From the NCBI GenBank assembly GCA_034440155.1, contig JAWXBN010000109.1, positions 1 to 39,028 of the forward strand: 39,028 nt of DNA. The letters are read 5' to 3'. Below the pieces are notes generated by a model. It was given only the letters and a program-made list of their open reading frames with translations. It was not told the origin of the DNA and made no database searches. Below, piece by piece: positions 7,277-22,762 of this stretch (the stretch's first letter is position 1; every line of letters starts with the position of its first letter). Position numbers and translations under genes: made by a program. Origin of the DNA: Verrucomicrobiota bacterium (lineage in GTDB: Bacteria; Verrucomicrobiota; Verrucomicrobiia; JAWXBN01).

Positions 7277-7316
7277 GGGGATGTTGTTAATAAATTGCAT
7301 ATATGCAAACATCCCC
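7277..7316 (+). promoter_or_regulatory. Inverted repeat enclosing the moxR start codon
   Basis: GGGGATGTT (7277-7285) pairs perfectly with AACATCCCC (7308-7316). The loop holds a second 14-bp palindrome, TTGCATATATGCAA (7295-7308), which contains the ATG at 7303. In mRNA this would fold into a 9-bp stem that hides both the start codon and the only G-rich ribosome-site candidate (GTGGGG, 7275-7280), so it could control moxR translation. Chance folding is not excluded. Confidence 0.45.
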
Positions 7317-8319
7317 CTCTTTAAATGATGAAGTCGCATCGAGACGACAAGCGATCACGACTCAAATGGCCAAGGCAATCGTTGGCCAAGAATGGGTGAT
7401 TGAAAATCTATTATTAACTCTCTTTTGTGGGGGGCATGCTCTGATTCTGGGGGTGCCGGGACTGGCGAAGACACGGATGATCCGTTCACTTTCGCAAATT
7501 TTGGATCTATCATTTAACCGGATTCAATTCACACCCGACCTGATGCCTTCGGACATCACCGGCACAGACATTATCGAAGAAGATCATGAGACGAGTAAAC
7601 GCCGGTTGGCCTTTCTACCCGGTCCCCTTTTTGCGAATCTCGTGCTCGCGGATGAAATCAACCGCACACCGCCAAAGACTCAGGCAGCCATGCTCCAGGC
7701 GATGCAGGAAATGGAAGTAAGTATTGGCAATAAAACATATGAGTTACCCCGGCCCTTCCATATTTTTGCGACACAAAACCCGATCGAAATGGAGGGGACC
7801 TATGAATTGCCCGAGGCACAGGCCGACCGTTTTATGTTCTGTATCCGAGCGACATATCCCACCCCTGAGGAAGAACACCGGATTGTGCGTCAGACCACGG
7901 GGAATGAGGAGGTCGCCCTCACCCCTGTATTAAATGCGGAAGAGCTTTCTCATATTCAAAGAATCGTCCGGGCTGTACCCGTCTCCGACGAGGTGATTGA
8001 TTATGCAGTCCGGTTAGTGGGGGCCTCTCGTCCGGATCATGATATGGCGGGCGCTGATGTCAAAGAATTCGTCCGATGGGGAGCTTCCCCCCGGGCATCA
8101 CAATATCTCGTCCTGGGTGCAAAAGGTTATGCGGCGATTACCGGGCAGCCCTGCGCCGATTATGAAGGAGTCCGTTACGTGGCCCAGCAAGTCCTCGGGC
8201 ATCGAATCTTGATGAATTTCAATGCGCGCGCACAAAAAATCACATCGGAAAATATCATTAACGGTATCTTAAAAACGGTAAAGACCTCATCAGGTAAAGT
8301 CCTGATCACAGCCAAGTAG
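7303..8319 (+). CDS. MoxR-family AAA+ ATPase
   Basis: 338 residues, the normal family length. Walker A is GVPGLAKT (50-57), Walker B is LVLADEINR (DEIN 117-120), and the sensor-1 region IFATQNPIEMEGTYELPEAQ is diagnostic of MoxR. MoxR ATPases act as chaperone-like remodelers that help vWA-domain proteins bind metal or reach their active form; they work in the cytoplasm at the membrane face. It is the first gene of a cassette (MoxR, DUF58, BatA-like, large membrane protein, vWA/amidotransferase-like) with gaps of 25, 2, -4 and 25 bp, so it is almost surely co-transcribed. Translation may be limited by a start-codon hairpin (7277-7316). The next ATG in the frame would delete the N-terminal helix, so 7303 is preferred. 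Confidence 0.95.
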   Translation: MQTSPSLNDEVASRRQAITTQMAKAIVGQEWVIENLLLTLFCGGHALILGVPGLAKTRMIRSLSQILDLSFNRIQFTPDLMPSDITGTDIIEEDHETSKRRLAFLPGPLFANLVLADEINRTPPKTQAAMLQAMQEMEVSIGNKTYELPRPFHIFATQNPIEMEGTYELPEAQADRFMFCIRATYPTPEEEHRIVRQTTGNEEVALTPVLNAEELSHIQRIVRAVPVSDEVIDYAVRLVGASRPDHDMAGADVKEFVRWGASPRASQYLVLGAKGYAAITGQPCADYEGVRYVAQQVLGHRILMNFNARAQKITSENIINGILKTVKTSSGKVLITAK

Positions 8320-8344
8320 CCATTCTCACTAGCCCGGTAATTTC

Positions 8345-9238
8345 ATGAATCAACCCTCGACAATAGATAAAAGTATTTTCGCAATCGTCGAGAGTCTTGC
8401 CTTTCTGGCAGAGTCCACGGTGGAAGGTTTTTTGACCGGGCTGCACCGTAGTCCTTTTACAGGATTTAGCACAGAGTTTGACTCTTATCGCCCGTACATA
8501 CAGGGGGATGGCTTGCGGCAGGTGGATTGGAAAGTCTGGGCAAGGACAGATAAACTCTACGTGAAACAATTTGAAGACCAGACGAATATGCCGGTTTGGA
8601 TATTCCTCGACGGTTCAGCATCGATGGATTTCGGCAAAGGAACGGGAAATAAATTCACACGTGCCTGCCAAATAGCTGCAGCCTTAGCTTATCTGATGAA
8701 TCGCCAGCATGATGCTGCGGGACTGGTGATTTACGGGGGGACGAGGCCTGTTACTGTCCCTCCTGCCACGACGCGGGATCACTTGAATGATCTTTTTCTC
8801 GCATTGGCCCGTGAAAAGATCACGGGCAATAAGGATGAGACAGGAGTCCTAATGTCATTACTCCCGATGATTCGACGCAAAGGGATCAGTGTGGTCATCT
8901 CGGATTGTCTCGCTCCCGCTGCGCACCTGCGCGCCTTTCTCAAAGGGTTAAGAGCCCAAAGACAGGAAGTGATTCTTTTCCATATCATGAGCCCGTCCGA
9001 GTGTGATCTCGGGGAATACAATGGGGCCTTTGTCATGCAGGATCGGGAAACTGGCGAGGAGTTACTGGTGGATGCTCATGCTTACCGTAAACGGTATGCT
9101 AAAATCGTCCGCGATTTCCGTGAGGAATTCGCGACCCTCTGTCAGGAGGAGGAAGCTGGGTATCATTTTATCAGGACGGATGATTCCTTGGAGAAAGCAC
9201 TCCTGGAGTATTTTAGTAGACGTGTGGAGATTCTCTAA
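8345..9238 (+). CDS. DUF58 domain protein (vWA-like partner of MoxR)
   Basis: 297 residues. The DUF58 hallmark spans 48-77 (YRPYIQGDGLRQVDWKVWAR) and ends in KQFED. A vWA-type metal site follows at DGSASM (89-94). In many bacteria DUF58 proteins are encoded directly behind MoxR and are thought to be its client or adaptor. There is no membrane segment, so it should be cytoplasmic or membrane-attached through the BatA-like neighbour. The ATG lies 25 bp after the moxR stop. No strong ribosome site is visible. Confidence 0.93.
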   Translation: MNQPSTIDKSIFAIVESLAFLAESTVEGFLTGLHRSPFTGFSTEFDSYRPYIQGDGLRQVDWKVWARTDKLYVKQFEDQTNMPVWIFLDGSASMDFGKGTGNKFTRACQIAAALAYLMNRQHDAAGLVIYGGTRPVTVPPATTRDHLNDLFLALAREKITGNKDETGVLMSLLPMIRRKGISVVISDCLAPAAHLRAFLKGLRAQRQEVILFHIMSPSECDLGEYNGAFVMQDRETGEELLVDAHAYRKRYAKIVRDFREEFATLCQEEEAGYHFIRTDDSLEKALLEYFSRRVEIL

Positions 9239-9240
9239 CC

Positions 9241-11322
9241 GTGTGGGGATCTTTGACACTGGTTAATGCTGCTTTCCTCTTGGGGCTTTTGGCCTTATCC
9301 ATCCCGGTGATTATCCATCTTTTGATCCGCCGCCGTTTCAAAAAAATGCCCTTTAGCACACTGCGATTTTTCCTCGACCGGGATCCAAAGCTGCGACACC
9401 GTTCGCCCTCGAATCTCCTTTTGTTGTTATTACGTCTGATTCTTTTTGGTTTGATCGTGGCGGCATTTACCAGGCCATTCCTGCCGGTCCCTGGCCAACC
9501 GCAGCATGAGGAGGAAAAACCGCGCCAGATTGTTTTAATTCTCGATACGACGGCCAGTATGACCATGGAAAGCCGGGTGGGCTCACGTTGGCATCAAGCT
9601 CGGGCCCTTGCACAAAATGCTGTGAAGGGTTTATCCCCAAAGGACTCAATGGCATTAGTCCTGCCCGGAGACCCTCCTGAGACAAAGGTGCCTATGGGCG
9701 CGCCGGAAAAAGTCGCCAGCATGCTGGATTCACTGGAGGCCGGGCCGACGACCGGGGAATTGTCGATGGCCCTTGATCACGCGGTCAAACTCCTCGCTGT
9801 GGGAAATGCCTCTGCTCAAAAAGAAATCAGGATTATCAGCGATCTTCAGGCTTCCACTCTCGGGGAATGGAAGAGCAAACCAGTGCCCTCTGATATTAAG
9901 ATTAAAATCATGGGGCTTTCAGAATTCAGCCTGGCTAATGCCTCCATTACCGGTATCGATTGGTCAGGGGTCCGGAGGCTTAATGCCGCGGTATTGGTCA
10001 AAAATGAATCTGAAAATGAAGTTTTACCGGCACGGAAAATACAGCTCTTTGTGGACGGTATTTTACGATCGAGTCAGACAGTGGACCTCCCTGCTGGGGG
10101 ATCGAAAAAAGCTGAGTTCAATCTCCCGGAACTTACTACGGGTCTCCATGGCGTGGAGGTGAAAATGGAGAGTGAAGACGGATTTTCCTTGGATAATATT
10201 TTTCGCCAGGTCGTATCAGTCCCCAGCGTAAAAAAGGTCATGGTCGTCGAGCCAACCCGGTCGGAAACGGTATGGAAACAGAAGTCTTATTTTATTTCAC
10301 GGGCCTTGATGAGTTCCCCGGACGGTTCCCCCGAGGCGGCCCGGTTCAAGATCGATACGTACCCTCTCGAGGGATTGGGCATCAAATTGCGTTCCGACAA
10401 TTATGATTTGATTTTGATTCCTGCCGTAGAGAAATGGTCCTCTGATTCAGAAAAAGAGCTGGAGAAACATTTGAAAAAGGGTGGGGCCATGATTGTTTTT
10501 GCCGGGCCAGATATGGACATAAATCAATATCACAGTGCAGCATCCTGGATGCCGGTTAAATTACGAAAGGAAGAATATAATCAGGATAATCCCAAGTATC
10601 TTGGTCATTATGACCGGGATTTCCCAGCGTTCAGTCTATTTGAAAAACCCCACAGCGGAGATTTGGAGATGGCGGAATTCACCGGGCGATATTTGCTTGA
10701 GCCGGTAGAAGGCAGTCGCGTGCTGGCGAGTTATGATGATGGGGTGCCATTCCTCGTGGAAAGGACCCTCGGTCAGGGGAGGGTTTATTTTGTGAATACC
10801 AGCGCGGACGCTACTTGGAGCAATTGGCCTAAGCTCAAAACATTCCTCCCTTGGCTCCATGCCTTGGCGGATGCGAGTCTAGGAATAGGAGGTACCCCCT
10901 CCGACCATATCAGGAAACCCTATCAGGTGTCTGCCTATACGGATATTCCGGTGCCGGGGGCTATTGCGCAGGTTGCCAAGATTACAACGCCAGGAGGACA
11001 GGAAATGGAATTAAAAATAGGAAATGATACTCGCTGGCACGGAGTCAAACTGATGGAAACAGGTTTTTATCCAATCACTCATGGAGAGGGACAGGTGATT
11101 GATCTCATAGCCGTGAATATTGCGCGTGCTGAATCTGATATGAAAGTCGTAAATCCGGATGTGCTCATGGCGGACATGAAAAGGGTAAATGAGCCGTCGG
11201 TTGCATTATTGTCTCCCACTGCTATTTCAAGTGAGCCCGGGCGTCGTGAGTACTGGCCGTGGATATTGATGGCTGCACTTTGTCTCGTGATGATCGAACC
11301 CCTCATTGCCAATCGAACATGA
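9241..11322 (+). CDS. BatA-like membrane protein with vWA domain
   Basis: 693 residues starting with GTG, 2 bp after the DUF58 stop. The N-terminus (LGLLALSIPVIIHLLIRRRF, TM1 about 9-29) matches the double-TM N-terminal domain of aerotolerance BatA-type proteins. TM2 is about 58-78. A vWA domain begins at LILDTTASM (102-106 as DTTAS; this is DxTxS rather than the usual DxSxS). The C-terminal half holds a second alpha/beta block (GGAMIVFAGPDMD) like a class I amidotransferase-fold domain without a visible Cys nucleophile, and a final TM at about 671-690. A role in a periplasmic or envelope complex driven by MoxR is inferred. Its TGA overlaps the next start (ATGA, 11319-11322), implying coupled translation. 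Confidence 0.88.
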   Translation: MWGSLTLVNAAFLLGLLALSIPVIIHLLIRRRFKKMPFSTLRFFLDRDPKLRHRSPSNLLLLLLRLILFGLIVAAFTRPFLPVPGQPQHEEEKPRQIVLILDTTASMTMESRVGSRWHQARALAQNAVKGLSPKDSMALVLPGDPPETKVPMGAPEKVASMLDSLEAGPTTGELSMALDHAVKLLAVGNASAQKEIRIISDLQASTLGEWKSKPVPSDIKIKIMGLSEFSLANASITGIDWSGVRRLNAAVLVKNESENEVLPARKIQLFVDGILRSSQTVDLPAGGSKKAEFNLPELTTGLHGVEVKMESEDGFSLDNIFRQVVSVPSVKKVMVVEPTRSETVWKQKSYFISRALMSSPDGSPEAARFKIDTYPLEGLGIKLRSDNYDLILIPAVEKWSSDSEKELEKHLKKGGAMIVFAGPDMDINQYHSAASWMPVKLRKEEYNQDNPKYLGHYDRDFPAFSLFEKPHSGDLEMAEFTGRYLLEPVEGSRVLASYDDGVPFLVERTLGQGRVYFVNTSADATWSNWPKLKTFLPWLHALADASLGIGGTPSDHIRKPYQVSAYTDIPVPGAIAQVAKITTPGGQEMELKIGNDTRWHGVKLMETGFYPITHGEGQVIDLIAVNIARAESDMKVVNPDVLMADMKRVNEPSVALLSPTAISSEPGRREYWPWILMAALCLVMIEPLIANRT

Positions 11323-13790
11323 AACCAAACCCAATCCATTCTACTTTACTGAATCGTCTCCAGGGATTAGCCCGTTGGAAAAGGCTGAGTATCCGTGTCC
11401 GCATTCCAGCAATGGGGCTGGCAGGTGTCATCTTGTTAGCCTTGTGTTGGGGGGGAGCCGACTGGTTATTTGTCTTGAAGGACGGCCTTCGTGCATTTGG
11501 TTTTATAATGATAGTCGGACTATTGACTTATATGACCTGGTGCTGGGTGAGTGTCATGAGGCGTCGCGTGGATGATAAGGAGGCTGCCTTAGATGCCGAG
11601 GGGATTAATCCGTCGTTTTCGACAGTGGTTTCCACCACGGCCGAGTATGAGCAAAACCCGGGGAGGACCTCTCAGGATCATGTGGCCAAAGACTGGGTCA
11701 AAATCATGCAGGTCCGCGCCGGGGAAATGCTTGCCCGTTACCGTCCGCCTTATGTGAAACAACTGGGGATAGCCGGTTTTGTTTTTGGCTGCGCGTTCGT
11801 GGCATTAATCCTTTATATGACGCTCTTACCTGAGGGATTGATTTCACTCGCGCGGATCATTCCAGGAACAAAACTTTCTTACACACGCATAGGGATGATG
11901 ACAGATGCGGTCAAAGTCCCCAAAGGCAGCCCTTATCTTATCCAGACGGAGATAACCGGACGAAAACCCGAAGCGGTGATCCTTCATTATAAACCCCAAG
12001 GTACTGACCTATTCCAGCAAATCATAATGGATGAAATTCAGCCCGGGATTTTCTCCTATGAAATCCCCCTTGTGGAAAAGTCATTTGATTATTATCTGAC
12101 AGCCGCAGACGGGGAGATGCCCGTGCAAAATGTCCAGGCTTTTGAGCCTCCGCGCATTGATGAATTCATCATCCGTGTCACCCCGCCTGCTTATACTGGG
12201 CAGGCCCCTTATACTCTGGCAGCCCCAGATGTGAGTGTCCTGCGTGGGAGTGGAGTGGATTACCGGATAAAAACATCCCCCCGACTCAATCACGTCATAC
12301 AGATGCGGGAAAAATTAGAATTTCCTGAGGAAGGACAAGTGGTTTCCTTGGGGCGTTTCGACCAAAAGTTCTTTGCCGATGGTGATCAGTATTGGTGGAC
12401 TGCCTGGACTTCGGATAAACCGGCGGAATTCGCGTATGCGATCATTCTCACGGATCATCTCGATCAAACAGTGACCAATAGTGCGCCCTACCGATTTTCA
12501 TTTGCCGCTGATCGCGTACCGAAAGTCGAGATTACCGAACCCGGGAAGGATATCGCGGCGAATCCGAATATGAAAATCCAGGTCAAAGCAACTGCAAAAG
12601 ATGATTACGAGATTGTGAAAATGAGATTGATCTATAATAAACTCGGGGATGCACCCCGGACAAATAATCTCCAGAATATTTCAAAAGAGGGGTCAAAATG
12701 GATGGTGTCTGGTGAAATCGAGCTCGAGCCCTTGGGGCTTAAACCCTATGAGCTTGTCGCCTATTTTGTCGAGGCTGAAGACAATAACACGTTGGATGGC
12801 CCGGGGATCGGGAAATCCCAGACTTATTTTATTGAAATCACCAATGAGAAAGTGGCCCTTTATCAATCTAAGGGAAGCAGTCAGTCATCCATAGAAACTA
12901 TTAATCTATTGGAAGCACAGAAAAATATTATTTCCACGGCAAACCAACTCATCGAAAGGAAAGAAGAAAAAAAGGCGGAAAATCTCAGCGTGAGTCAAAA
13001 AGTTATTCGTGAATATACCGAGGTATATCTGGATGCCATGAAAAAGACAAAGCTACCGGAGTCGGTTCTAGAAATGATGAGTGAAGCAATTGAGTATATG
13101 AAAGCCTCGGAGGAAAAGCTCCAGTCTGGTAATATCCAGGAGGCGATGGTTCCTGCACAAAAAGCCTTGGCTAATCTTTATCAAGTTGTCCAGCTGACTC
13201 CGGGCAAAAGGCCGAGTGTTATGGGTGAAGCAGATGACGATCAAAATGTGGCGATTCTTTTGGAAGCGATCCATCAATATGGAAAGGCTAAAAATAAAAA
13301 AGTCCAGAAAGCACTCAGGGAAATAATCGATGAAGCCAAGCAACTTGCTGAACTGGAAACTGAAATCTCCACCAAACGGCATCCTCTTCCTAAATTTAAG
13401 GGAGGCAAGAAAGGATCCGGGAATGGTAAGGGGAACGGGTTGACGAATCAGGAGAGAGAACTCAAAGAAAGAGGCGAGCAACTTGCTGCAAAGATCAAAG
13501 CTCTTTCTGAGAAGGATTCCCGAATCAAAAAGGAGCTAGCCGCTCAGTTGCTCGGTGGTATCAGTCGATTTGTCACCCCGCCAGATGATCCACAAGCAGG
13601 GGGGGGGCTTCTCTCCGGGGCTATGGCGATGCCGAATAATAACCTCAAGAATGCATTGGAGAAAATGATTATCGACCTCGGCAGGATTGAGAAGAATTTC
13701 AAAGCTGACCGGATCCAAAATGATGAGTATCCGCAGGAATATCAACCCTATGTAGAGGATTATTTCCGGAAGCTTACGAGGGAGGAGTAG
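11319..13790 (+). CDS. Large membrane protein of the MoxR cassette (DUF4175-like)
   Basis: 823 residues from the ATG at 11319, which overlaps the previous stop by four bases. Two N-terminal TM segments (about 30-50 and 56-76) and a third (about 151-172) precede a long extracytoplasmic region with beta-sandwich-like blocks (FIIRVTPPAYTGQAPYTL; KDDYEIVKMRLIYNKLG). The last 280 residues are helical and charged, with coiled-coil character, a Gly/Lys-rich linker (KGGKKGSGNGKGNG) and a C-terminal helical tail. This organisation resembles DUF4175-type proteins encoded with MoxR/BatA cassettes. Function is not known; a scaffold in the envelope complex is the likeliest reading. An upstream extension to 11259 is open but would overlap BatA more and lacks support. 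Confidence 0.78.
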   Translation: MKPNPIHSTLLNRLQGLARWKRLSIRVRIPAMGLAGVILLALCWGGADWLFVLKDGLRAFGFIMIVGLLTYMTWCWVSVMRRRVDDKEAALDAEGINPSFSTVVSTTAEYEQNPGRTSQDHVAKDWVKIMQVRAGEMLARYRPPYVKQLGIAGFVFGCAFVALILYMTLLPEGLISLARIIPGTKLSYTRIGMMTDAVKVPKGSPYLIQTEITGRKPEAVILHYKPQGTDLFQQIIMDEIQPGIFSYEIPLVEKSFDYYLTAADGEMPVQNVQAFEPPRIDEFIIRVTPPAYTGQAPYTLAAPDVSVLRGSGVDYRIKTSPRLNHVIQMREKLEFPEEGQVVSLGRFDQKFFADGDQYWWTAWTSDKPAEFAYAIILTDHLDQTVTNSAPYRFSFAADRVPKVEITEPGKDIAANPNMKIQVKATAKDDYEIVKMRLIYNKLGDAPRTNNLQNISKEGSKWMVSGEIELEPLGLKPYELVAYFVEAEDNNTLDGPGIGKSQTYFIEITNEKVALYQSKGSSQSSIETINLLEAQKNIISTANQLIERKEEKKAENLSVSQKVIREYTEVYLDAMKKTKLPESVLEMMSEAIEYMKASEEKLQSGNIQEAMVPAQKALANLYQVVQLTPGKRPSVMGEADDDQNVAILLEAIHQYGKAKNKKVQKALREIIDEAKQLAELETEISTKRHPLPKFKGGKKGSGNGKGNGLTNQERELKERGEQLAAKIKALSEKDSRIKKELAAQLLGGISRFVTPPDDPQAGGGLLSGAMAMPNNNLKNALEKMIIDLGRIEKNFKADRIQNDEYPQEYQPYVEDYFRKLTREE

Positions 13791-13815
13791 GTTTTTTGCA
13801 GGTATTACTAAAGAT

Positions 13816-16167
13816 ATGAATCAAATTCAATTTTCACATCACATTCCACCCGTATGGCTGTGGTCAGGCATTCTTCTGGCAGCAGCACTTTTAATCGTGA
13901 GTTATTTGACCGCGCGGAACCGTGCATCCGGGATGCGTTTAGCGGCTTTTCTTTTTTTGAGATTTCTGTGCATCGGAGTGGTGTTTTTTGTGCTCATGGG
14001 GCCCTACCGCATCCAGGAGACAAAAAAACAAGTCCAACGTTCCTCGAATTTAAGAATGGTATCATTAATGGATGTGTCGGGCAGTATGGGTTTAGCCGAT
14101 GGGGGAGTACAAAAGCGGATTGATTTGGCTAGAGGGTGGAGGGATCAAAAGTTCATCCCCCGACTACCAGCGGGTACGCATCTCCAGAGTTATGAGTTTA
14201 ATCATATTTTAAGGGAAGCGGGTAACGGGATGGTCAATGTGACTGAGGGGGGTACCTCCTTGATCGGGGCTTTGACCACCCTCGCAGGATTGATTCCGGA
14301 TGAAGGTTTGGACGGTGTCATTCTCGTCAGTGACGGGGCGGATCATTCTGGGGAGGCCCTCGCTGCTGTTATCGAGCCATTTCATTCACACGGGATTCCG
14401 ATTCATACATTGACTGTGGGAAAGCCTGAGAAACCAGCTGATGTGAAAATATCTGATATCAAGGTCAAGGAATGGTCGAAGGAAACCCAACCCGCGGAAG
14501 TGGAAGCGACGATAGAACAAACAGGATTAGCGGGCTCCACAGCGACACTCAGAATATTCAAGGGGGTAGAAGTAATTTCCAAGGAAACAATCACGCTCGA
14601 TTCACCCCAAAAAACTTTTTCATTAAAGTTTAATCCTCCCACCACGAGGGCCGATGTGTTGACATTAAATGTGGATTTGCAGGGAGTTGATTCATTCCCG
14701 GAGAATAACTCTGTGCCTTTCAGTGTGGAACTCAACGATCCGGACAAAGCCGGTAAACCTAAAATCAAGGTCTTGTATCTTCATCCCCCTGTCGCGGGAA
14801 ATGGTTGGTATGAGTTCCAATTTAAATTTCTCAAGGCTAGTCTGGAATTGGATCCTGAGGTTGAATGCACGGTCATTCAAGGGTGGTATTCACCAGCGAA
14901 TATGCCTGTGGATTATGTGAGTGTGGAGCCGGAAACGGGGTATAAGGCCTATAATATGCAGCATCCTGTCCACGGGTTCCCAAGGACATTTGAGGCACTA
15001 ATGGAGTATGACGTGGTCATTAATGGCTCCGTGTGGCTCAAACATTTCAGTCCGCAGATGCAGAAGAATCTCGTGCGTTTTGTCGAGGAGGGAGGAGGAG
15101 GATATTTTATCAGCGGGGGTGATTGTAGCTTTGGGACTGGGGGATATATGGGATCTCCTTTGGAAATGCTTCAACCCGTGGTGATTGACGGGAGGGCAGA
15201 CATTAATAGTTGGGGCGGTCAAACGATTCCCCGTTTTACCGCCGAGGGATTAAGGCATCCAGTGATGCAGATAGGTGATGATGCGGATAAAAATAAAAAA
15301 ATTTGGGATAAATTTCCACCCCTCATGGCCTTTAACCTAGTGAAACGTGCTAAACCCGGAGCGATTGTCATCGCCGATAATCCTCAGGTGAAAAATGAAT
15401 TTGGATCGGCTTTGATTATGGCCGTCCAAGAGGTCGGTAAAGGCCGGACGATAGCATGGACTTCGGGGATCATGGGAGATTGGGGTATCGGATTTATGCA
15501 GGTCTGGGGAGAGGTGGTGGATCCGTCCAAACCACTCTCCGCGGAAAACTGTGACCGGAGGTATTATAATAAATTCTGGAACAATGTGGTGAGGTGGTTG
15601 GCCGCGCCGAAGCTCGACAATCAAAGAACTGTTTGCACCCTTGTCTGCGAGAAATTAATGCCATCCCCCGGGGAGTCCCTTCCTGTTCAATTATTCCTCC
15701 GTGATCCCAGCCAATATAAAGACTCGATGCGTTGCCGGTTTTCGCTGAGCGCCGCAGACCAAGTGATTTCTTCGTCTGAAGGTGTGTGGGATATGGCTGA
15801 AAAATGTTTTAAAACTAATTTTTCAGTTCCCCAAACCGGTGATTATTTTGTGGAAGCGAATCTCACCGTCGACGGAAAAATATTTGGTGGCAAACGGGTA
15901 TTAGTCGCTTGCAGGACTGACAATAAGGAAATGGCGCAATCCCCAGCAAATCCAAAATTGATGGCGCAAATTGCGCAAGAAACCGGTGGGAAGATTCTTG
16001 ATTTGGATCATGACTATGTGATGGAGCCTTCCCTTTTATCAGGGAGTAGTGAGTACACGGTAAGACGCGAGAAAAAGTCCCTCTGGGATAACTGGGGGAT
16101 ATTATGTGCCTTGCTGGGATTATTATCTATCGAGTGGGCCGCCCGACGCTTGTCCGGCATGGCGTGA
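13816..16167 (+). CDS. Membrane vWA protein with glutamine-amidotransferase-like domain
   Basis: 783 residues, fifth gene of the MoxR cassette. TM segments lie at about 13-31 and 41-62. A complete vWA metal site, MDVSGSM, is at 85-91, with DGVILVSDGAD later in the domain. The central part carries GGYFISGGDCSFGTGGY followed by SPLEMLQPVVIDG, the hallmark of the amidotransferase-like family PF07090 found in such cassettes; that family generally lacks a working catalytic Cys. A final TM (DNWGILCALLGLLSIEWAA) is at the C-terminus. It is probably envelope-anchored with its vWA domain available to MoxR or DUF58. The 25-bp gap from the previous gene fits one transcript. Confidence 0.88.
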   Translation: MNQIQFSHHIPPVWLWSGILLAAALLIVSYLTARNRASGMRLAAFLFLRFLCIGVVFFVLMGPYRIQETKKQVQRSSNLRMVSLMDVSGSMGLADGGVQKRIDLARGWRDQKFIPRLPAGTHLQSYEFNHILREAGNGMVNVTEGGTSLIGALTTLAGLIPDEGLDGVILVSDGADHSGEALAAVIEPFHSHGIPIHTLTVGKPEKPADVKISDIKVKEWSKETQPAEVEATIEQTGLAGSTATLRIFKGVEVISKETITLDSPQKTFSLKFNPPTTRADVLTLNVDLQGVDSFPENNSVPFSVELNDPDKAGKPKIKVLYLHPPVAGNGWYEFQFKFLKASLELDPEVECTVIQGWYSPANMPVDYVSVEPETGYKAYNMQHPVHGFPRTFEALMEYDVVINGSVWLKHFSPQMQKNLVRFVEEGGGGYFISGGDCSFGTGGYMGSPLEMLQPVVIDGRADINSWGGQTIPRFTAEGLRHPVMQIGDDADKNKKIWDKFPPLMAFNLVKRAKPGAIVIADNPQVKNEFGSALIMAVQEVGKGRTIAWTSGIMGDWGIGFMQVWGEVVDPSKPLSAENCDRRYYNKFWNNVVRWLAAPKLDNQRTVCTLVCEKLMPSPGESLPVQLFLRDPSQYKDSMRCRFSLSAADQVISSSEGVWDMAEKCFKTNFSVPQTGDYFVEANLTVDGKIFGGKRVLVACRTDNKEMAQSPANPKLMAQIAQETGGKILDLDHDYVMEPSLLSGSSEYTVRREKKSLWDNWGILCALLGLLSIEWAARRLSGMA
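15966..15976 (+). repeat. Iterated GCAAATTGCNC motif, single copy
   Basis: Exact copy near the 3' end of the vWA/amidotransferase-like gene, encoding Gln-Ile-Ala in MAQIAQETGG. It is the only copy in the whole 8.9-kb MoxR cassette. Degenerate relatives with G at position 5 occur at 13476-13486 and 16417-16427 (both minus). Confidence 0.8.
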
Positions 16168-16792: not shown

Positions 16793-17635
16793 ATGGGTGA
16801 AGAGACTAAATCGAAGCAAGAAGGGCTCGTGGAGATTCAGGGAAAAACAATCCCGAGATCTCCTATTGCCGACTCCTTGGAAATTGAGATTGAGCCACTC
16901 ACAGCGGATGGATTAACCATTGAAATAGGGGATTTGAAGGAAGAAACCCAGAAAAATATTTCATCCAGCCCCTCGAAAGAAAAATCGATAAATTCTTCTC
17001 CTGGTGATGATAGTAATGATAAATCAAAAATTCCTTCGGCCGGAAAAGTGATTGAATTTGCCCAAGCAGCAACACTCCAAAAACTCATCGAAATTAGTGA
17101 TAAAATAAGCACCTTGGATAAGAATGTGAGCATTTCAAAAGATGAAATTGCCAAGGTGATCGAGAAATTTGATACAAAGATTGCAGCAGATAATCATTCC
17201 CGGGAAATGTTTTCCGCTATGCATACGGAATTAAAGAGTTATAAGGATGCCGCCCTTTTTGATATTTTTCATAAACCGTATCTTAAAGATATGGTTTTAG
17301 TTTACGATGATCTTTACCGGCTCCAGAAGAATGCAGAGTCATTAAAGGGTAAATTAAAAGAGTCTGACCTTGAAATAAGCAAGGAATTCAATAATCATGC
17401 GAATAATATTGATAATATTAAGGCGTTGCTTTTAGAAAGCCTGAACCGTATGGATGTCGAGATTATTGAAGATAAATCAGATGTCATTGATAAGCAGTAT
17501 CATAAGGTGGTTAATACACGCAAAACGTCACTCCCTGAAGAGGATGGAAAAATTGCGGAAATTACCAATCATGGCTTCCGTTGGAAGGGCAAATTGCTCC
17601 GACATGAAGAAGTCATTGTATTTAAACAGGAATAA
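16793..17635 (+). CDS. Divergent GrpE-like nucleotide-exchange factor
   Basis: 280 residues. The N-terminal ~80 residues are acidic, Ser-rich and probably disordered. Residues about 85-200 look like a long amphipathic helix region (TLQKLIEISDKISTLDKN), then LVYDDLYRLQ. The C-terminal ~50 residues match the GrpE beta-domain: MDVEIIE ... YHKVVNT ... EEDGKIAEITNHGFRWKGK, ending LLRHEEVIVFK. GrpE opens the nucleotide cleft of Hsp70. Direct position upstream of a DnaK-like gene (62 bp) supports the call. It is longer and more diverged than housekeeping GrpE (about 190-200 residues), so it is likely a dedicated partner of the next gene, not the general GrpE. One iterated-motif copy lies at its 3' end. 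Confidence 0.8.
   Translation: MGEETKSKQEGLVEIQGKTIPRSPIADSLEIEIEPLTADGLTIEIGDLKEETQKNISSSPSKEKSINSSPGDDSNDKSKIPSAGKVIEFAQAATLQKLIEISDKISTLDKNVSISKDEIAKVIEKFDTKIAADNHSREMFSAMHTELKSYKDAALFDIFHKPYLKDMVLVYDDLYRLQKNAESLKGKLKESDLEISKEFNNHANNIDNIKALLLESLNRMDVEIIEDKSDVIDKQYHKVVNTRKTSLPEEDGKIAEITNHGFRWKGKLLRHEEVIVFKQE
17589..17599 (+). repeat. Iterated GCAAATTGCNC motif, single copy
   Basis: Exact copy in the GrpE-like gene, encoding Gly-Lys-Leu-Leu. No further exact copy occurs for the next 6.7 kb. Confidence 0.8.
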
Positions 17636-17697: not shown

Positions 17698-19260
17698 ATG
17701 TCTAAGCGTAAAGTCGTAGGAATAGATTTAGGGACCACGTTCTCCGCGATTGCCCATATTGATGAATATGGCAAGCCGCAGATTATTCCTAATGCTGAAA
17801 GTGAGCGGACGACCCCATCGGTTATTCTTTTCGAGGATAGTAATGTGATTGTAGGCAGTACAGCCAAAGCTTTAGCTGTCGCTGAACCGGAAAAGATTGT
17901 AGAATTTGTCAAACGCGAGATGGGCAAACCGCGTGAGGAATTTAACCGCGAGGTAGGAGCGATCAAATATTCTGCTGATGAACTTTCTGCCGTAATCCTT
18001 AAAAAGATGAAGAATGATGCGGAAAAATATCTCGCTGTGACAGTGACCGATGCAGTCATTACGGTTCCTGCCTATTTTAATGATGCCGAGCGTAATGCGA
18101 CGATGAATGCAGGGAAAATTGCCGGATTGAATGTATTGCAGGTGATTAATGAACCAACAGCAGCGGCTTTGGCCTACGGGATTAATAAGCTGGGTAAAGA
18201 CCAAACCGTCTTTGTTTTTGACCTTGGTGGGGGGACCTTTGACGTGACGATCATGAAAATCGATGGCGAACAAATCCGGATGGTCGCGACCAATGGAGAC
18301 CACCGACTGGGCGGAAAAGACTGGGATGACAAAATTATTAATTATGTCGCCGAGGAATTTGATAAAACGCACGGGGAAAATCCGCTTCTTGATTTGCAAG
18401 CTTACCAAGATTTACAGTCCCGCTCCATCGCTGCAAAAATCCAGCTCACTAACCGTTCGAAGACCACAGTCGTCCATAGTCATAATGGCAAATCGGTAAA
18501 GGTAGACCTGAGTCTGGATCAATTTAATCAGATGTGCCAGGACTTGGTAGAGAAATGCCACATCCTTTGTGATATCGTCCTGATGGAAGCAAAAATGACA
18601 TGGAAGGATATCGATACCGTTCTGCTCGTTGGCGGGATGACCCGTTGCCCAATGGTCCGGAATATGGTGAGGGAGTCCAGTGGGAAAGAACCATCCGAGG
18701 AAGTCAATCCTGACGAGGCGGTGGCCCTTGGTGCGGCCGTACAAAGTATGCTTTGCCACATCAAAGAGTCAGTGGACACGGGGTCTAATGAGGTCGCTCC
18801 TGAAACTATTAAACATTTTACGGGGTCATCGGGTGGTTTGATCCAGGTCACTAATATTACCTCCCATACTTTAGGAATCGTTTTGTGGAATGATGTAAAC
18901 CATGAGGAATATGTATTCCCCATGATTGCGAAAATGACGAGTGTGCCTTGTGAGATTAAAAATACTTTCGGGACGGCCAGTGCGAATATGAAACGGGTCG
19001 TCGTCAAAGTCGTGGAAGGGGAGAGCACCGTGCCAGAGGAATGTACCAAGCTTGGAAATTGTGAGATTGAGCTGCCTGAGTATCTCCCGAAAGCCACTCC
19101 TGTCGAGGTGACTTATCGTTATAATAACAATCAAATTCTTGAAGTGACTGTCAAAGCACAGGATAAAATAGCCCATGCCGAGATCCACCGCTCCGGGGGC
19201 CTGAATGAAAAAGAAGTCGGTAAGGCACGCGAACATCTCACGTTGCTGAATGTCGCTTAG
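17698..19260 (+). CDS. Short non-canonical Hsp70 (DnaK-like, lid lost)
   Basis: 520 residues, about 110-120 shorter than DnaK. The ATPase domain is intact: GIDLGTTFSA (8-17), NEPTAAALAYG (151-161), DLGGGTFDVT (175-184), LLVGGMTRCPMVR (309-321) and NPDEAVALGAA (337-347). The usual hydrophobic linker DVLLLDV is missing; instead a ~25-residue segment (about 355-380) leads to GLIQVTNITSHTLGI. The beta substrate-binding domain runs to about residue 505, and the helical lid is absent. A protein of this form can bind substrates or a fixed partner but should cycle differently from DnaK. It is flanked by a GrpE-like gene upstream and a J-like/FGE fusion 24 bp downstream, which together suggest a private chaperone set. 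Confidence 0.93.
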   Translation: MSKRKVVGIDLGTTFSAIAHIDEYGKPQIIPNAESERTTPSVILFEDSNVIVGSTAKALAVAEPEKIVEFVKREMGKPREEFNREVGAIKYSADELSAVILKKMKNDAEKYLAVTVTDAVITVPAYFNDAERNATMNAGKIAGLNVLQVINEPTAAALAYGINKLGKDQTVFVFDLGGGTFDVTIMKIDGEQIRMVATNGDHRLGGKDWDDKIINYVAEEFDKTHGENPLLDLQAYQDLQSRSIAAKIQLTNRSKTTVVHSHNGKSVKVDLSLDQFNQMCQDLVEKCHILCDIVLMEAKMTWKDIDTVLLVGGMTRCPMVRNMVRESSGKEPSEEVNPDEAVALGAAVQSMLCHIKESVDTGSNEVAPETIKHFTGSSGGLIQVTNITSHTLGIVLWNDVNHEEYVFPMIAKMTSVPCEIKNTFGTASANMKRVVVKVVEGESTVPEECTKLGNCEIELPEYLPKATPVEVTYRYNNNQILEVTVKAQDKIAHAEIHRSGGLNEKEVGKAREHLTLLNVA

Positions 19261-19284: not shown

Positions 19285-20961
19285 ATGGCGCTTCCTTATC
19301 CTCTAGCAGATGACCCCCGGAAATGGGATGGTTGGAAACTTTATAATTCAAATAACCTCTACGACCGGTTAGGTTTATCATATGAAGAGGCTCCCAGTGC
19401 CCAGTTAATTGAGGAGTGTTGCCGACAGTTACTGATGTGGTGGCAAAAAAAGCTTCCGCTCAAAAGCCAGCCGAATAATCCATTAGCCCAGCTCTTGGGA
19501 CGCGCCATTGATGAGGCTCCCCGCTTGATCACCCAAGCCAAGGTCATTTTACTCGATCCCGACCAACGCGCCGTCCATGACCGGCAGATCCAGCAAAGTG
19601 CAAATGACAGCTCATTGGAGGAGTTTCAGAAATTTATCATTTTTGCCTTGTCGGATAAAAAACTCACACCGGCCGGGGAAAACGGATTGTATGGAATGGG
19701 GCAGAACTTAGGTTTGGCCGATGAACTGATAGGGCAGACGATAGAGGCAAATTTATTGGAGTTAGGGGCGGTTAGATTCGACCCGGAGGCTGCTGCTGTC
19801 GAAGCGATTGCTGAGGCCAATGCACGCACGGAAGCTTTGAAAGTCCAGCAGGCCACTTTGGTGGCGGGAACCGCATCGGCTCCTGCGGGGGCAAAGGCCA
19901 AAGATAATGGAGGGCAACCGGCTGCTCCCGCTGGACAACCGGATCCCGATGGATTTAAGGATTTGGTTGAACAGTGGAAAGAACGTTCCGAATGGGGTGA
20001 ACTAGAGGACGAAGATAAAGATAAACTCATGAAATGGGCTGGAAACTTTAACCTGACTGCACCATGGGCCCAGGCGATCGTCGATGATGAAGAATATGAT
20101 CCCGACGGTGAATCAAAAGCCAAAACGGCAGAAGAGGAACGCATAAAGAAGAAGGCGGCTTTAGCCAGTGCTGCCAGTCCGGTACAAAGTTATTCCCCCG
20201 AGCAGGAGAAGGCTCTTTATCCGCCGTATGTCAATGAGTTAGGCATGCAAATGATTTATATCCCCAGCTGCACCTTTAAAATGGGATGTAAATCCCCAGA
20301 GGCGGCCCATAATGAAGAGCCTGAATTCCAAGTCACATTAACGGGATATTACATTTCAAAATCGCCAGTGACATTTGCCCAGTTTGAACAGTTTTTGCCG
20401 ACCCACAAATCCAAGCGCCCGGCTTGGGCTGATGACTCGCATCCGGCGGTCATGATGTCGTGGGAACAGGCCGGGAAATTTTGTGATTGGCTCAGTGTCA
20501 GGGAAAACAAAAAATATAAGTTGCTGACAGAAGCAGAATGGGAATATGCGGCCAAAGGCCCTCAAAATCGCCGTTATCCCTGGGGGGATAGTGATATAGC
20601 GGCGGCATTGGGAAATTTTGCCGATGCCTCTACAAATTTCCACTGGTCGGATCCAGTGATCAATGATGGGTTTGCTCAGAGCTCACCAATAGGCAGTTTT
20701 CCCTTGGGGAGTTCTCCATTTGGATGTGATGACATGGCCGGTAATGTCTGGGAATGGTGTAAAGATGTTTTAGCAGATTACAAAATATCTCCTCAGACTA
20801 ATCCCTCTCCTTCGACGGGATCCCAGAAAATCATCCGTGGCGGTTCATGGAGGTCAAAAGCCACTAGCTTGAGGACAACAGCAAGGGCAGGGCAAATGCC
20901 CACTTATTTCGCAAATGATATAGGATTTCGAATTGCCTGCACAAGACCTGTGATTAAGTAA
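19285..20961 (+). CDS. J-like domain fused to FGE/sulfatase-modifying-factor-like domain
   Basis: 558 residues. Residues about 20-100 resemble a J domain (NLYDRLGLSYEEAPSAQLIE, a Trp-rich helix, then AKVILLDPDQRAVHDRQI), but the HPD tripeptide between helices II and III is replaced by Pro-Leu-Lys-Ser-Gln-Pro. An Ala/Gly/Pro linker (about 190-222) and a charged segment follow. Residues about 317-555 form an FGE-sulfatase (SUMF1-like) domain: GMQMIYIPSCTFKMG, LLTEAEWEYAAKG, YPWGD, GNVWEWC, IIRGGSW, DIGFRIAC. The cysteine pair that FGE uses after RGGSF is absent here (RGGSWRSKATSLRTTARAG), so formylglycine production is unlikely; ligand binding or scaffolding by the C-lectin-type fold is more plausible. 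It directly follows the DnaK-like gene, with AAGGAGAGG before the ATG. Confidence 0.85.
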   Translation: MALPYPLADDPRKWDGWKLYNSNNLYDRLGLSYEEAPSAQLIEECCRQLLMWWQKKLPLKSQPNNPLAQLLGRAIDEAPRLITQAKVILLDPDQRAVHDRQIQQSANDSSLEEFQKFIIFALSDKKLTPAGENGLYGMGQNLGLADELIGQTIEANLLELGAVRFDPEAAAVEAIAEANARTEALKVQQATLVAGTASAPAGAKAKDNGGQPAAPAGQPDPDGFKDLVEQWKERSEWGELEDEDKDKLMKWAGNFNLTAPWAQAIVDDEEYDPDGESKAKTAEEERIKKKAALASAASPVQSYSPEQEKALYPPYVNELGMQMIYIPSCTFKMGCKSPEAAHNEEPEFQVTLTGYYISKSPVTFAQFEQFLPTHKSKRPAWADDSHPAVMMSWEQAGKFCDWLSVRENKKYKLLTEAEWEYAAKGPQNRRYPWGDSDIAAALGNFADASTNFHWSDPVINDGFAQSSPIGSFPLGSSPFGCDDMAGNVWEWCKDVLADYKISPQTNPSPSTGSQKIIRGGSWRSKATSLRTTARAGQMPTYFANDIGFRIACTRPVIK

Positions 20962-21082: not shown

Positions 21083-22762
21083 ATGATCATGAGAAGAATC
21101 ATTTTAACATTATTTACCGCTTCAATCATGGTTATGATTGGGCAGGCAAATTTATTTGCACAGTCGTCACCGACGAATACTACAAAAACGGTGGATGTAA
21201 ATTCGTTAAAGAGTTCAAATTGGCTTACTGAGAAGTACGCGAATGACAAATTACCCGGACCCAGTATCGGGGCCCGCGGAGGATATTACGCTTCCGAAAA
21301 ACATACTTTCATCGTCGAAGAATGGGCGAATGTGCCACTTTTCCGTGAAGGGAATTTTATGGTGTCTTATAGTTACGACACATTTACACCGTTTCAAAAA
21401 GAAAACGGGGTGCATCAAGTGGCTCGTAATGATATGACCCAAGAGCTGAATCTGGAATACGATTTGAATGAACAGATCGCTTTGATGGGTGGTTTTGGCT
21501 GGGAACAATCCGATTTTATTGATGCCACAGGTGATTATACGGCCTATCGTGTTGGTGTCGGTGCTGGAACCCCCTACGTCAAGCGTTACACTGATAAACT
21601 GACATGGTCATTTATTGCCGGCCCGGCATTTGGAGTGGATAATGCCCAGGCAAATTGGTTCATGGACATATATGGATCCTATCAGATTTTTGATTTTAAT
21701 TATTTAGCCTCTACAAAAAATTTGGCCAAACGCCCGTCATTGAATATCGAGGCACGCATGGAGAGTTACAATATGGACCTGACACGTTTTGGTCCGTATG
21801 TTAATGTCGGTCCGACGCTGAGTTTTATTTCGGCTAACGGGAATAAACTCGACTTTTTTGCACACTATGTGGGTAACGGTGGCAACCAGTTTAAAATGAC
21901 AAATGATCAGGGTGCTTATTTGGGTTTTGCTGTTGATGCAATGAGGGAATATCCTTTTGGCACATTGCCTACGGACTGGCAAAATGGGGATGTGCTACCG
22001 AAGGTCTGGGGTTATTATGAAATGGGCTGGGGCCGGAGCGGGGATTATGTGACGAATTTCAAAATCAATGCACAGCTTTACCAGTTCCGCGTCGGGATCC
22101 CCTGGACTGCGTATGTCTGGTTCCAGCCCCGCCGTTATTGGGCTGGCGGTAAAAATGATGTCAGTAGTGCCCTTTATAATGTTGGTTTCGGATTAATGAC
22201 CCCGATCACGCTGGATAATGGTTGGGATGTGATTGGCAACCGTATGCCAATGCAGTTGGGTTTTGAATTCTTCCACCGCAGTGACCACAGCATCAATCCA
22301 TCGGCAACACAGGTGGCCAATAACAACAAAGGCCCTAACAATTCCAGCCGTTATGCTTGGCAGGGAAGTATGAATCAATTTCCCCGTGTCTTTTTTTCCA
22401 CGGCCGGATGGGACTCCCCCTATGTTTATACTGAGATGTATAAGGAAAAACTTGCTTGGGTAAACACCTTGGACTGGCGTACGTCCATCGGTTATACGGT
22501 TGAATCGGCGAATGTAAGAGCCAAGAGCCCTATTAGTGCCGAGATCGGGATTCAATGGAATATAGTGACTGTTTACGGGTATGTGCCTTATGTCCGTGGT
22601 GGAGCCGGATACGGTGCTGTGTCTCCCGGTTATATGGGAGAGGTAGGGTTCCAACGCCCCGCCTACAAGATGTATATCCGCTACGAAAATGAAAATCTTT
22701 CCTCTGTCATTAGCGGTGGACGTGACAATGTATGGTATGGTGGCTTTAGCTTGAATCTCTAG
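21083..22762 (+). CDS. Predicted outer-membrane / secreted protein, function unknown
   Basis: 559 residues, with AGGA 7 bases before the ATG at 21083 (a second ATG follows two codons later). The signal peptide is clear: positively charged start (MRRII), hydrophobic core, NLFAQ-S cleavage. The mature part is rich in Tyr, Trp, Phe and Gly with alternating-residue strands (FMVSYSYDTFTPFQ; KMYIRYENENL; NVWYGGFSLNL), as in outer-membrane barrels. No known family was recognised by eye. It lies 121 bp after the FGE fusion gene; a weak TTGACA (21028-21033) suggests its own transcription. A long inverted repeat begins at its stop codon. Confidence 0.75.
   Translation: MIMRRIILTLFTASIMVMIGQANLFAQSSPTNTTKTVDVNSLKSSNWLTEKYANDKLPGPSIGARGGYYASEKHTFIVEEWANVPLFREGNFMVSYSYDTFTPFQKENGVHQVARNDMTQELNLEYDLNEQIALMGGFGWEQSDFIDATGDYTAYRVGVGAGTPYVKRYTDKLTWSFIAGPAFGVDNAQANWFMDIYGSYQIFDFNYLASTKNLAKRPSLNIEARMESYNMDLTRFGPYVNVGPTLSFISANGNKLDFFAHYVGNGGNQFKMTNDQGAYLGFAVDAMREYPFGTLPTDWQNGDVLPKVWGYYEMGWGRSGDYVTNFKINAQLYQFRVGIPWTAYVWFQPRRYWAGGKNDVSSALYNVGFGLMTPITLDNGWDVIGNRMPMQLGFEFFHRSDHSINPSATQVANNNKGPNNSSRYAWQGSMNQFPRVFFSTAGWDSPYVYTEMYKEKLAWVNTLDWRTSIGYTVESANVRAKSPISAEIGIQWNIVTVYGYVPYVRGGAGYGAVSPGYMGEVGFQRPAYKMYIRYENENLSSVISGGRDNVWYGGFSLNL

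Follow-up and report, generated by a model that had tools for sequence, protein, structure and literature searches.

The window, a stretch of 39,028 nucleotides of DNA from a Verrucomicrobiota bacterium (contig JAWXBN010000109.1), holds on its forward strand a module of three neighbouring genes. The first (16793..17635) encodes a GrpE-like nucleotide exchange factor of 280 aa, in which the GrpE profile PF01025 covers residues 103-277 (E 3.7e-11) and scores 43.4 bits against a cut-off of 25.8; the NCBIfam GrpE equivalogs match it far under their cut-off. The second (17698..19260) encodes a short Hsp70 of 520 aa (PF00012, E 3.1e-127) that has no lid, and is followed after 24 nt by a gene (19285..20961) for a 558-aa J-like/FGE fusion protein with 30 distinct full-length homologues. 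The sole domain that Pfam recognises in this fusion protein is PF03781 (residues 322-551, 20248..20937, E 3.8e-46), a fold of the formylglycine-generating enzyme (FGE) type, here without the catalytic cysteine pair. Closer to the N-terminus are a predicted J-domain fold without an HPD motif (residues 22-102, 19348..19590) and a helical region (residues 106-190, 19600..19854) whose model has a pLDDT of 83-96 by block, the predicted helices after the J fold spanning residues 92-121, 129-141, 146-160 and 167-189. The full-length model has a pTM of 0.45, for which reason the arrangement of domains in it was left uninterpreted, and its confidence is poor at residues 429-487 and 521-531.

Strong matches to the J-like/FGE protein are present in 24 of the 384 sampled genomes of the class, three others (G158, G301 and G400, E 3e-5 to 7e-3) having been dropped from the 27 that matched at E <= 0.01. 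The module Hsp70 (E <= 1e-140) also occurs in 24 of the 384 genomes, and a comparison of the two lists showed these to be the identical 24. At the level of the phylum, a profile search of 288 genomes gave four real matches, all in the window's class, plus a weak one (G281, E 0.009), and a single-sequence search matched five of the 288, from which G158 was dropped because its weak match (E 6e-5) lies inside a 451-aa oxidoreductase-like frame, while a search at the level of the order returned the window's own genome only. The J-like gene follows the Hsp70 gene on the same strand in all 26 fetched loci that bear this Hsp70, with gaps of -77 to +73 nt, and in 20 of them the gene immediately before the Hsp70 is a GrpE homologue. 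Second J-like/FGE copies with no adjacent Hsp70 (L141, L142, L143 and L144) exist in four module-bearing genomes. Since the genome of the window also has a canonical DnaK, along with two DnaJ-type proteins that do bear an HPD and are encoded elsewhere, the GrpE/Hsp70/J-like module is an extra system.

A preliminary description of this DNA had stated that both folds of the fusion protein remain recognisable. Both are present, the FGE fold by PF03781 and the J fold by predicted structure, but the idea that the J-like region can be recognised from its sequence had to be rejected, as Pfam, phmmer and the family profile against PDB sequences all failed. PF00226 was reported by Pfam in one of the 30 homologues (E 0.22) and was unreported for the other 29, and no J domain was retrieved from the PDB sequences either by phmmer with residues 1-112 or by the family profile. 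When aligned by hhalign to five real J domains, the domain was covered in its entirety (residues 23-105), with a weak score (E 0.006, Prob 6.2). The claim of a J fold thus rests on the predicted fold. A model of the J region built from the 30 homologues has a mean pLDDT of 93.3, and Foldseek gave ranks 1-11 to J domains, or to chains taken to contain one, and placed the J domain of DnaJ bound to DnaK (5nro_B) at rank 12, these J matches having E values of 0.23-2.3 and a prob of 0.85-0.99, with none at E <= 0.001. The J match found by VIA-align covers model residues 21-102, with Z 8.9 and an rmsd of 2.5 Å over 69 residues for 6rzy, and Z 8.6 and an rmsd of 1.7 Å over 65 residues for 2och. J-fold chains make up the top 44 of 50 VIA-align rows, as read from their titles or from the match itself, a few of them (e.g. 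complex I and mitoribosome chains) being called a J fold by the match alone; clearly unrelated rows begin at Z 5.3, on a scale on which a Z below ~13 may be middling for helical models. In a reading by hand, A85, L89, R95 and D99, which are invariant in the 30 distinct homologues, match landmarks of J helices III/IV. By predicted structure, then, the N-terminal residues 22-102 have a J-domain fold. The protein departs from the J-domain proteins (JDPs) of classes A-C in that this fold comes without the HPD motif in 31 of 31 rows, and it falls into the type IV or J-like class, in which the HPD of a J fold is non-conservatively replaced, with the proviso that the type IV definition, as worded in the part of the literature drawn on here, wants a clearly recognisable J domain and this one is recognisable from predicted structure, not by Pfam.

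HPD is the defining motif of the J domain, and there is none anywhere in the window protein or in the 31 homologue rows (30 distinct), exactly as the preliminary description had it for the J-like region. A compensating HPD elsewhere, sought as a possible refutation, was rejected on the same 31 rows; one homologue has HP at its own positions 40-41, which do not belong to the loop. What replaces the HPD and its flanks is the densest 23-residue invariant stretch of the whole protein (residues 49-71, 19429..19497, LLMWWQKKLPLKSQPNNPLAQLL in the window), which contains WWQKKLPLKxQPSNP and in which 14 of 23 columns are invariant over the 31 rows. All 31 rows (30 distinct) carry the motif WWQ[KN]KL[PR]LKxQP[SN]NP, and none of 20,000 column permutations was as dense, in a procedure that ignores the clustering of conservation within folded domains. 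Region by region, invariant columns make up a share of 0.24 in residues 20-105, 0.18 in the FGE part and 0.035 in residues 106-190 (3 of 85 columns). Which residues are the counterpart of the HPD depends on the alignment, namely Q54-K55-K56 if helix II is aligned without gaps or L57-P58-L59 in the weak hhalign alignment, but the His and the Asp are gone either way. In the helix II alignment from hhalign, the equivalent of DnaJ R22 is a Glu in 27 of 30 sequences. Two of the four second copies have LRLK in place of LPLK in the loop. Invariance this extreme at the HPD site reads as the signature of a replaced functional loop and not of decay, so that the J half would have exchanged its HPD loop for another functional one. 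The view put forward earlier that selection keeps both folds as binding parts needs to be amended accordingly: the folds are indeed kept, but the HPD site is not relaxed, since no other stretch of the protein is as conserved as the one now in its place, and the adjacent, co-occurring Hsp70 has changed at the same contact.

The contact in question is described in published work on Hsp70s and their J partners (the papers drawn on here being PMC13012618, PMC5519331, PMC8215388, PMC11019930, PMC4595643, PMC6843406, PMC4664246, PMC7289447, PMC10423991, PMC13254874), according to which D35 of the HPD bonds to DnaK R167 and H33 to L391, and the canonical charge pairing sets R22, K26 and R27 of the J domain against E206, D211 and E217 of the nucleotide-binding domain (NBD) (PMC8215388). 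In the same literature, R167A DnaK is non-functional with normal DnaJ and is rescued by DnaJ D35N, and R167H suppresses D35N, the changes at R167 and D35N being mutual suppressors. Changing the motif to HPN or QPD already abolishes stimulation in ordinary pairs, while an analogue of the J domain that was designed with no HPD still has the ability to stimulate.

On the Hsp70 side, the orthologues of the module were compared at these positions with 33 controls, consisting of 22 canonical DnaKs, eight sequences of a third paralogue and E. coli DnaK, HscA and HscC, the 30 controls that are not from E. coli being the best 30 of 71 matches listed from the same 24 genomes and the only ones among them with a locus. 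Position R167 (E. coli DnaK numbering throughout), the contact of the HPD Asp, is Gln in 25 and Asn in one of 26 distinct orthologues (Gln148 in the window, codon at 18139..18141) and Arg in 33/33 controls. K155 is replaced by Met, Ile or Leu in all 26, the controls having Lys or Arg without exception (33/33), and E206 has become Lys or Arg in 25 of 26, as against Glu or Asp in 32 of 33 controls, where the exception is HscA with R206. The linker VLLLD (E. coli 389-393) is degenerate, reading IQVTN in the window (18841..18855) after an insertion of ~23 residues. Across the 26 distinct orthologues, L390 is invariably Gln, Lys, Arg or Glu, L391 is invariably Val or Ile and D393 is Asn in 23, and the segment equivalent to E. 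coli 380-390 spans 33-34 residues in the module Hsp70s versus 11 in the controls. Only 18 residues follow E. coli position 507 in the module Hsp70, compared with 101-155 in canonical DnaKs. The ATPase residues D8, T11, K70, E171, D194, T199 and D201 are, however, kept in 27/27 rows, as are P143, Y145, D148 and R151; set beside a canonical DnaK, this protein thus has the Hsp70 ATPase residues and lacks R167, the VLLLD linker and the helical lid. The module Hsp70s form one clade in the tree, with full support and a long stem, and their changes map to one ancestral branch; the paired changes may thus be a single evolutionary event and not amount to replicated co-variation. Many of the same genomes encode a third Hsp70 paralogue of ~600 residues (L188-L195), in which R167 and D393 are kept and position 390 is Val in 7/8.

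The joint disappearance of D35, H33 and R167, together with Val or Ile at L391 and a Glu at the R22 site while 206 is basic, leads us to read the contact as rebuilt on both sides. A J-domain Glu at the R22 site facing a basic 206 is the reverse of the canonical charge pairing, and the mutual suppression between R167 and D35N changes indicates that paired changes at the D35/R167 contact can work. The Hsp70/J-like pair looks rebuilt rather than broken. The interpretation we favour, and hold to be somewhat better than an even bet, is that of a dedicated GrpE-like/lid-less Hsp70/J-like-FGE module, in which the J contact was rewired on both sides and the FGE fold serves as a client or ligand arm. 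The J-like domain would bind the Hsp70 of its module at a remodelled interface, to which it would contribute the invariant loop QKKLPLKxQPSNP instead of an HPD loop, and the Hsp70 would contribute Gln instead of Arg167, Ile, Leu or Met instead of Lys155, Lys or Arg instead of the acidic J-binding residue 206, and a changed linker, while a client or ligand would be held by the FGE fold. Physical binding is something we infer, and the same goes for the client and for whether the J-like domain stimulates its Hsp70 or merely recruits or holds it. Speaking against a rewired contact are the R206 that HscA also has and the four second copies that lack an adjacent Hsp70. The J half would in this case be a conserved HPD-less co-chaperone, a type IV JDP by its predicted fold, tied to an Hsp70 that lost the HPD receptor, the two proteins making up a specialised Hsp70/J pair with putative binding and a putative effect on the ATPase.

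It is conceivable, although we find it rather unlikely, that the module Hsp70 has dropped the J-driven allosteric cycle and become a holder or an exchange factor, roughly in the manner of eukaryotic Hsp110, with the J-like domain acting as no more than a tether or a lock. The losses of R167, K155, D393 and the LLL linker would then reflect a lost coupling between the NBD and the substrate-binding domain. In published work, R167/K155/D481 and D393 do carry interdomain allostery and coupling as well, so that the loss of R167, K155 and D393 could be independent of the J partner; Leu-to-Ala or Leu-to-Asp changes in the DnaK linker reduce DnaJ affinity tenfold and abolish DnaK function, the linkers of Hsp110s are reported to diverge from those of canonical Hsp70s, and the missing lid of the module Hsp70 fits the same picture. 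Speaking against a holder of this sort are the retention of P143, Y145, D148, R151 and all catalytic residues in 27/27 rows, the GrpE-like gene kept in 20/26 loci, for which a nucleotide-locked holder has no obvious need, and the J loop, which is the most strongly conserved part of the partner protein.

Another scenario is suggested by Pam16, a mitochondrial J-like protein described as having a mutated HPD and pairing with Pam18. The J-like domain might likewise make no contact with the module Hsp70 and instead pair with and restrain an HPD-bearing J protein, the gene order then reflecting shared regulation only. Candidate partners would be the two HPD-bearing DnaJ-type proteins encoded elsewhere in the window genome, and the scenario would also fit the second copies of four genomes, which have no Hsp70 next to them. 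Nevertheless, we regard this scenario as improbable, given that no HPD protein is seen in the module, that the J-like/FGE protein and the Hsp70 have an identical distribution over 24 genomes, and that the Hsp70 in question lacks R167, when R167A DnaK is reported to be non-functional with normal DnaJ.

The FGE half calls for a different reading from the one first proposed for it. True FGEs have Cys336 and Cys341 within the RGGSW...R segment (residues 518-534, 20836..20886, RGGSWRSKATSLR in the window), in the human numbering used in PDB titles (C336S and C341S mutants). The window protein has the FGE fold and, when aligned to the pair-bearing relative L072, a Ser and a Leu at these positions, so that the cysteine pair is indeed absent after RGGSW, as had been noted. 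A compensating pair, which had also been considered as a refutation, was looked for after RGGSW, where some orthologues have one or two Cys, none in FGE spacing, and the window protein has none. However, the earlier conclusion that both catalytic hallmarks were lost is sound only for the J domain, and loss of the cysteine pair from the FGE domain was rejected, because the pair is present in 2 and absent from 78 of the 80 nearest FGE-domain relatives (the best 80 of 143 candidates in the genome collection, with loci that include three J-like/FGE orthologues, L008-L010). A cruder pattern search likewise gave 2/80 with both Cys, its RGGSW pattern having matched no segment in 19 rows. With the pair confined to 2/80 of the nearest relatives, no loss needs to be invoked: the pair marks the true-FGE subfamily only, its absence is the common state around the J-like/FGE protein, and the FGE half is an ordinary, non-FGE member of its superfamily.

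Among solved structures, Foldseek with the full model placed PvdO (5hha, E 2.4e-14) and human FGE (E 7e-14) closest in fold. That PvdO, named dihydropyoverdine dehydrogenase by NCBIfam, is the best fold match of the full model and that 44 of 243 columns of the domain are invariant would be in keeping with an enzyme of another kind, as in the PvdO, EgtB and OvsA relatives, which the Hsp70 module would mature or regulate. We give this idea little chance, since the NCBIfam equivalogs fall far under their cut-offs (PvdO 86 of 500 bits, EgtB 57 of 360). The fold and the RGGSW/GFR landmarks are common to the window protein, FGE and other PF03781 proteins (PvdO, EgtB, GldK/PorK), but unlike FGE it has no Cys pair, a lack that it shares with the majority of its nearest relatives.

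As for the client that an FGE-type arm would hold, gene order suggests that the module may have a part in tetrapyrrole synthesis. In 23/26 loci (22/25 distinct non-window loci, L010 and L136 being the same DNA), the module has upstream of it, on the same strand and at distances of -157 to +151 nt, a fused uroporphyrinogen-III methyltransferase/synthase gene (cobA/hemD). Beyond this gene lie clusters for hydroxymethylbilane synthase and for glutamyl-tRNA reductase, each in 16 loci, and, in 14 loci, a CcsB-type cytochrome c assembly gene, names that were taken from L126, and L008 for the first. In many loci, ccsB-hemA-hemC precede cobA/hemD on the same strand, with some 4-base overlaps (e.g. L126:1469-6504). 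This heme/siroheme neighbourhood is absent from the window, and the uroporphyrinogen-III synthase gene (hemD) of the window genome is on another contig. A client from tetrapyrrole synthesis would be a guess made from this order. In its most far-reaching form, which we offer tentatively and would not bet on, the favoured reading becomes a natural, HPD-free drive of an Hsp70, in which the loop QKKLPLKxQPSNP would act on Gln/Asn167, a hydrophobic 155, a basic 206 and a polar linker, orthogonally to the DnaK/DnaJ of the same cell, and the FGE fold would deliver one class of clients, perhaps the enzymes of tetrapyrrole synthesis whose genes stand in one row with the module in most relatives.

Among open-licence PMC papers, screened by title or start of abstract, none was found that deals with a fusion of J and FGE domains or with the pairing of an HPD-less J protein and an Hsp70 that lacks R167. 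The closest parallels are the type IV or J-like proteins (the pseudo-JDPs Pam16, CPP1 and DnaJB13), which in published work are alike in having a J fold with a replaced HPD. In contrast to these, the window protein is bacterial, fused to an FGE-type domain and encoded beside its own Hsp70 and a GrpE-like gene, its adjacent Hsp70 lacks the Arg that receives the HPD, and its replacing loop is near-invariant over 30 distinct sequences. Another parallel, described in the same literature, is E. coli HscC, a diverged Hsp70 with linked J proteins of its own, DjlB/DjlC, which carry an altered HPD (HPE). However, DjlB/DjlC retain HP plus an acidic residue and HscC retains R167 and D393, whereas the window module has neither the His, the Asp, R167 nor the LLLD linker and, unlike the HscC system, includes a GrpE-like gene. 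With canonical DnaK-DnaJ-GrpE, the module has in common the same three roles, the same Hsp70 catalytic residues and the GrpE family match, but it is devoid of the HPD, R167, the VLLLD linker and the lid, and its J part goes unrecognised by Pfam.

The module thus presents a bacterial HPD-less J form that is conserved across many genera, next to a co-inherited Hsp70 without the residue on which the HPD acts, and poses the question of whether an R167-less Hsp70 needs and responds to a J-like partner without HPD. If it does, this would be a naturally orthogonal Hsp70/J pair, from which one could learn what in the HPD mechanism an Hsp70 can do without; if it does not, the module would document the way in which a J-like domain persists after ATPase stimulation has been lost.

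In the window, the region directly upstream of the module (7303-16167) contains genes of MoxR-type ATPase, BatA/VWA, DUF4175 and VWA/GATase1-like type, while in the other loci no gene near the module is labelled as one of these. Downstream of it (21083-22762) is a gene for a 559-aa protein, whose N-terminus is signal-like and for which Pfam gives nothing above chance.
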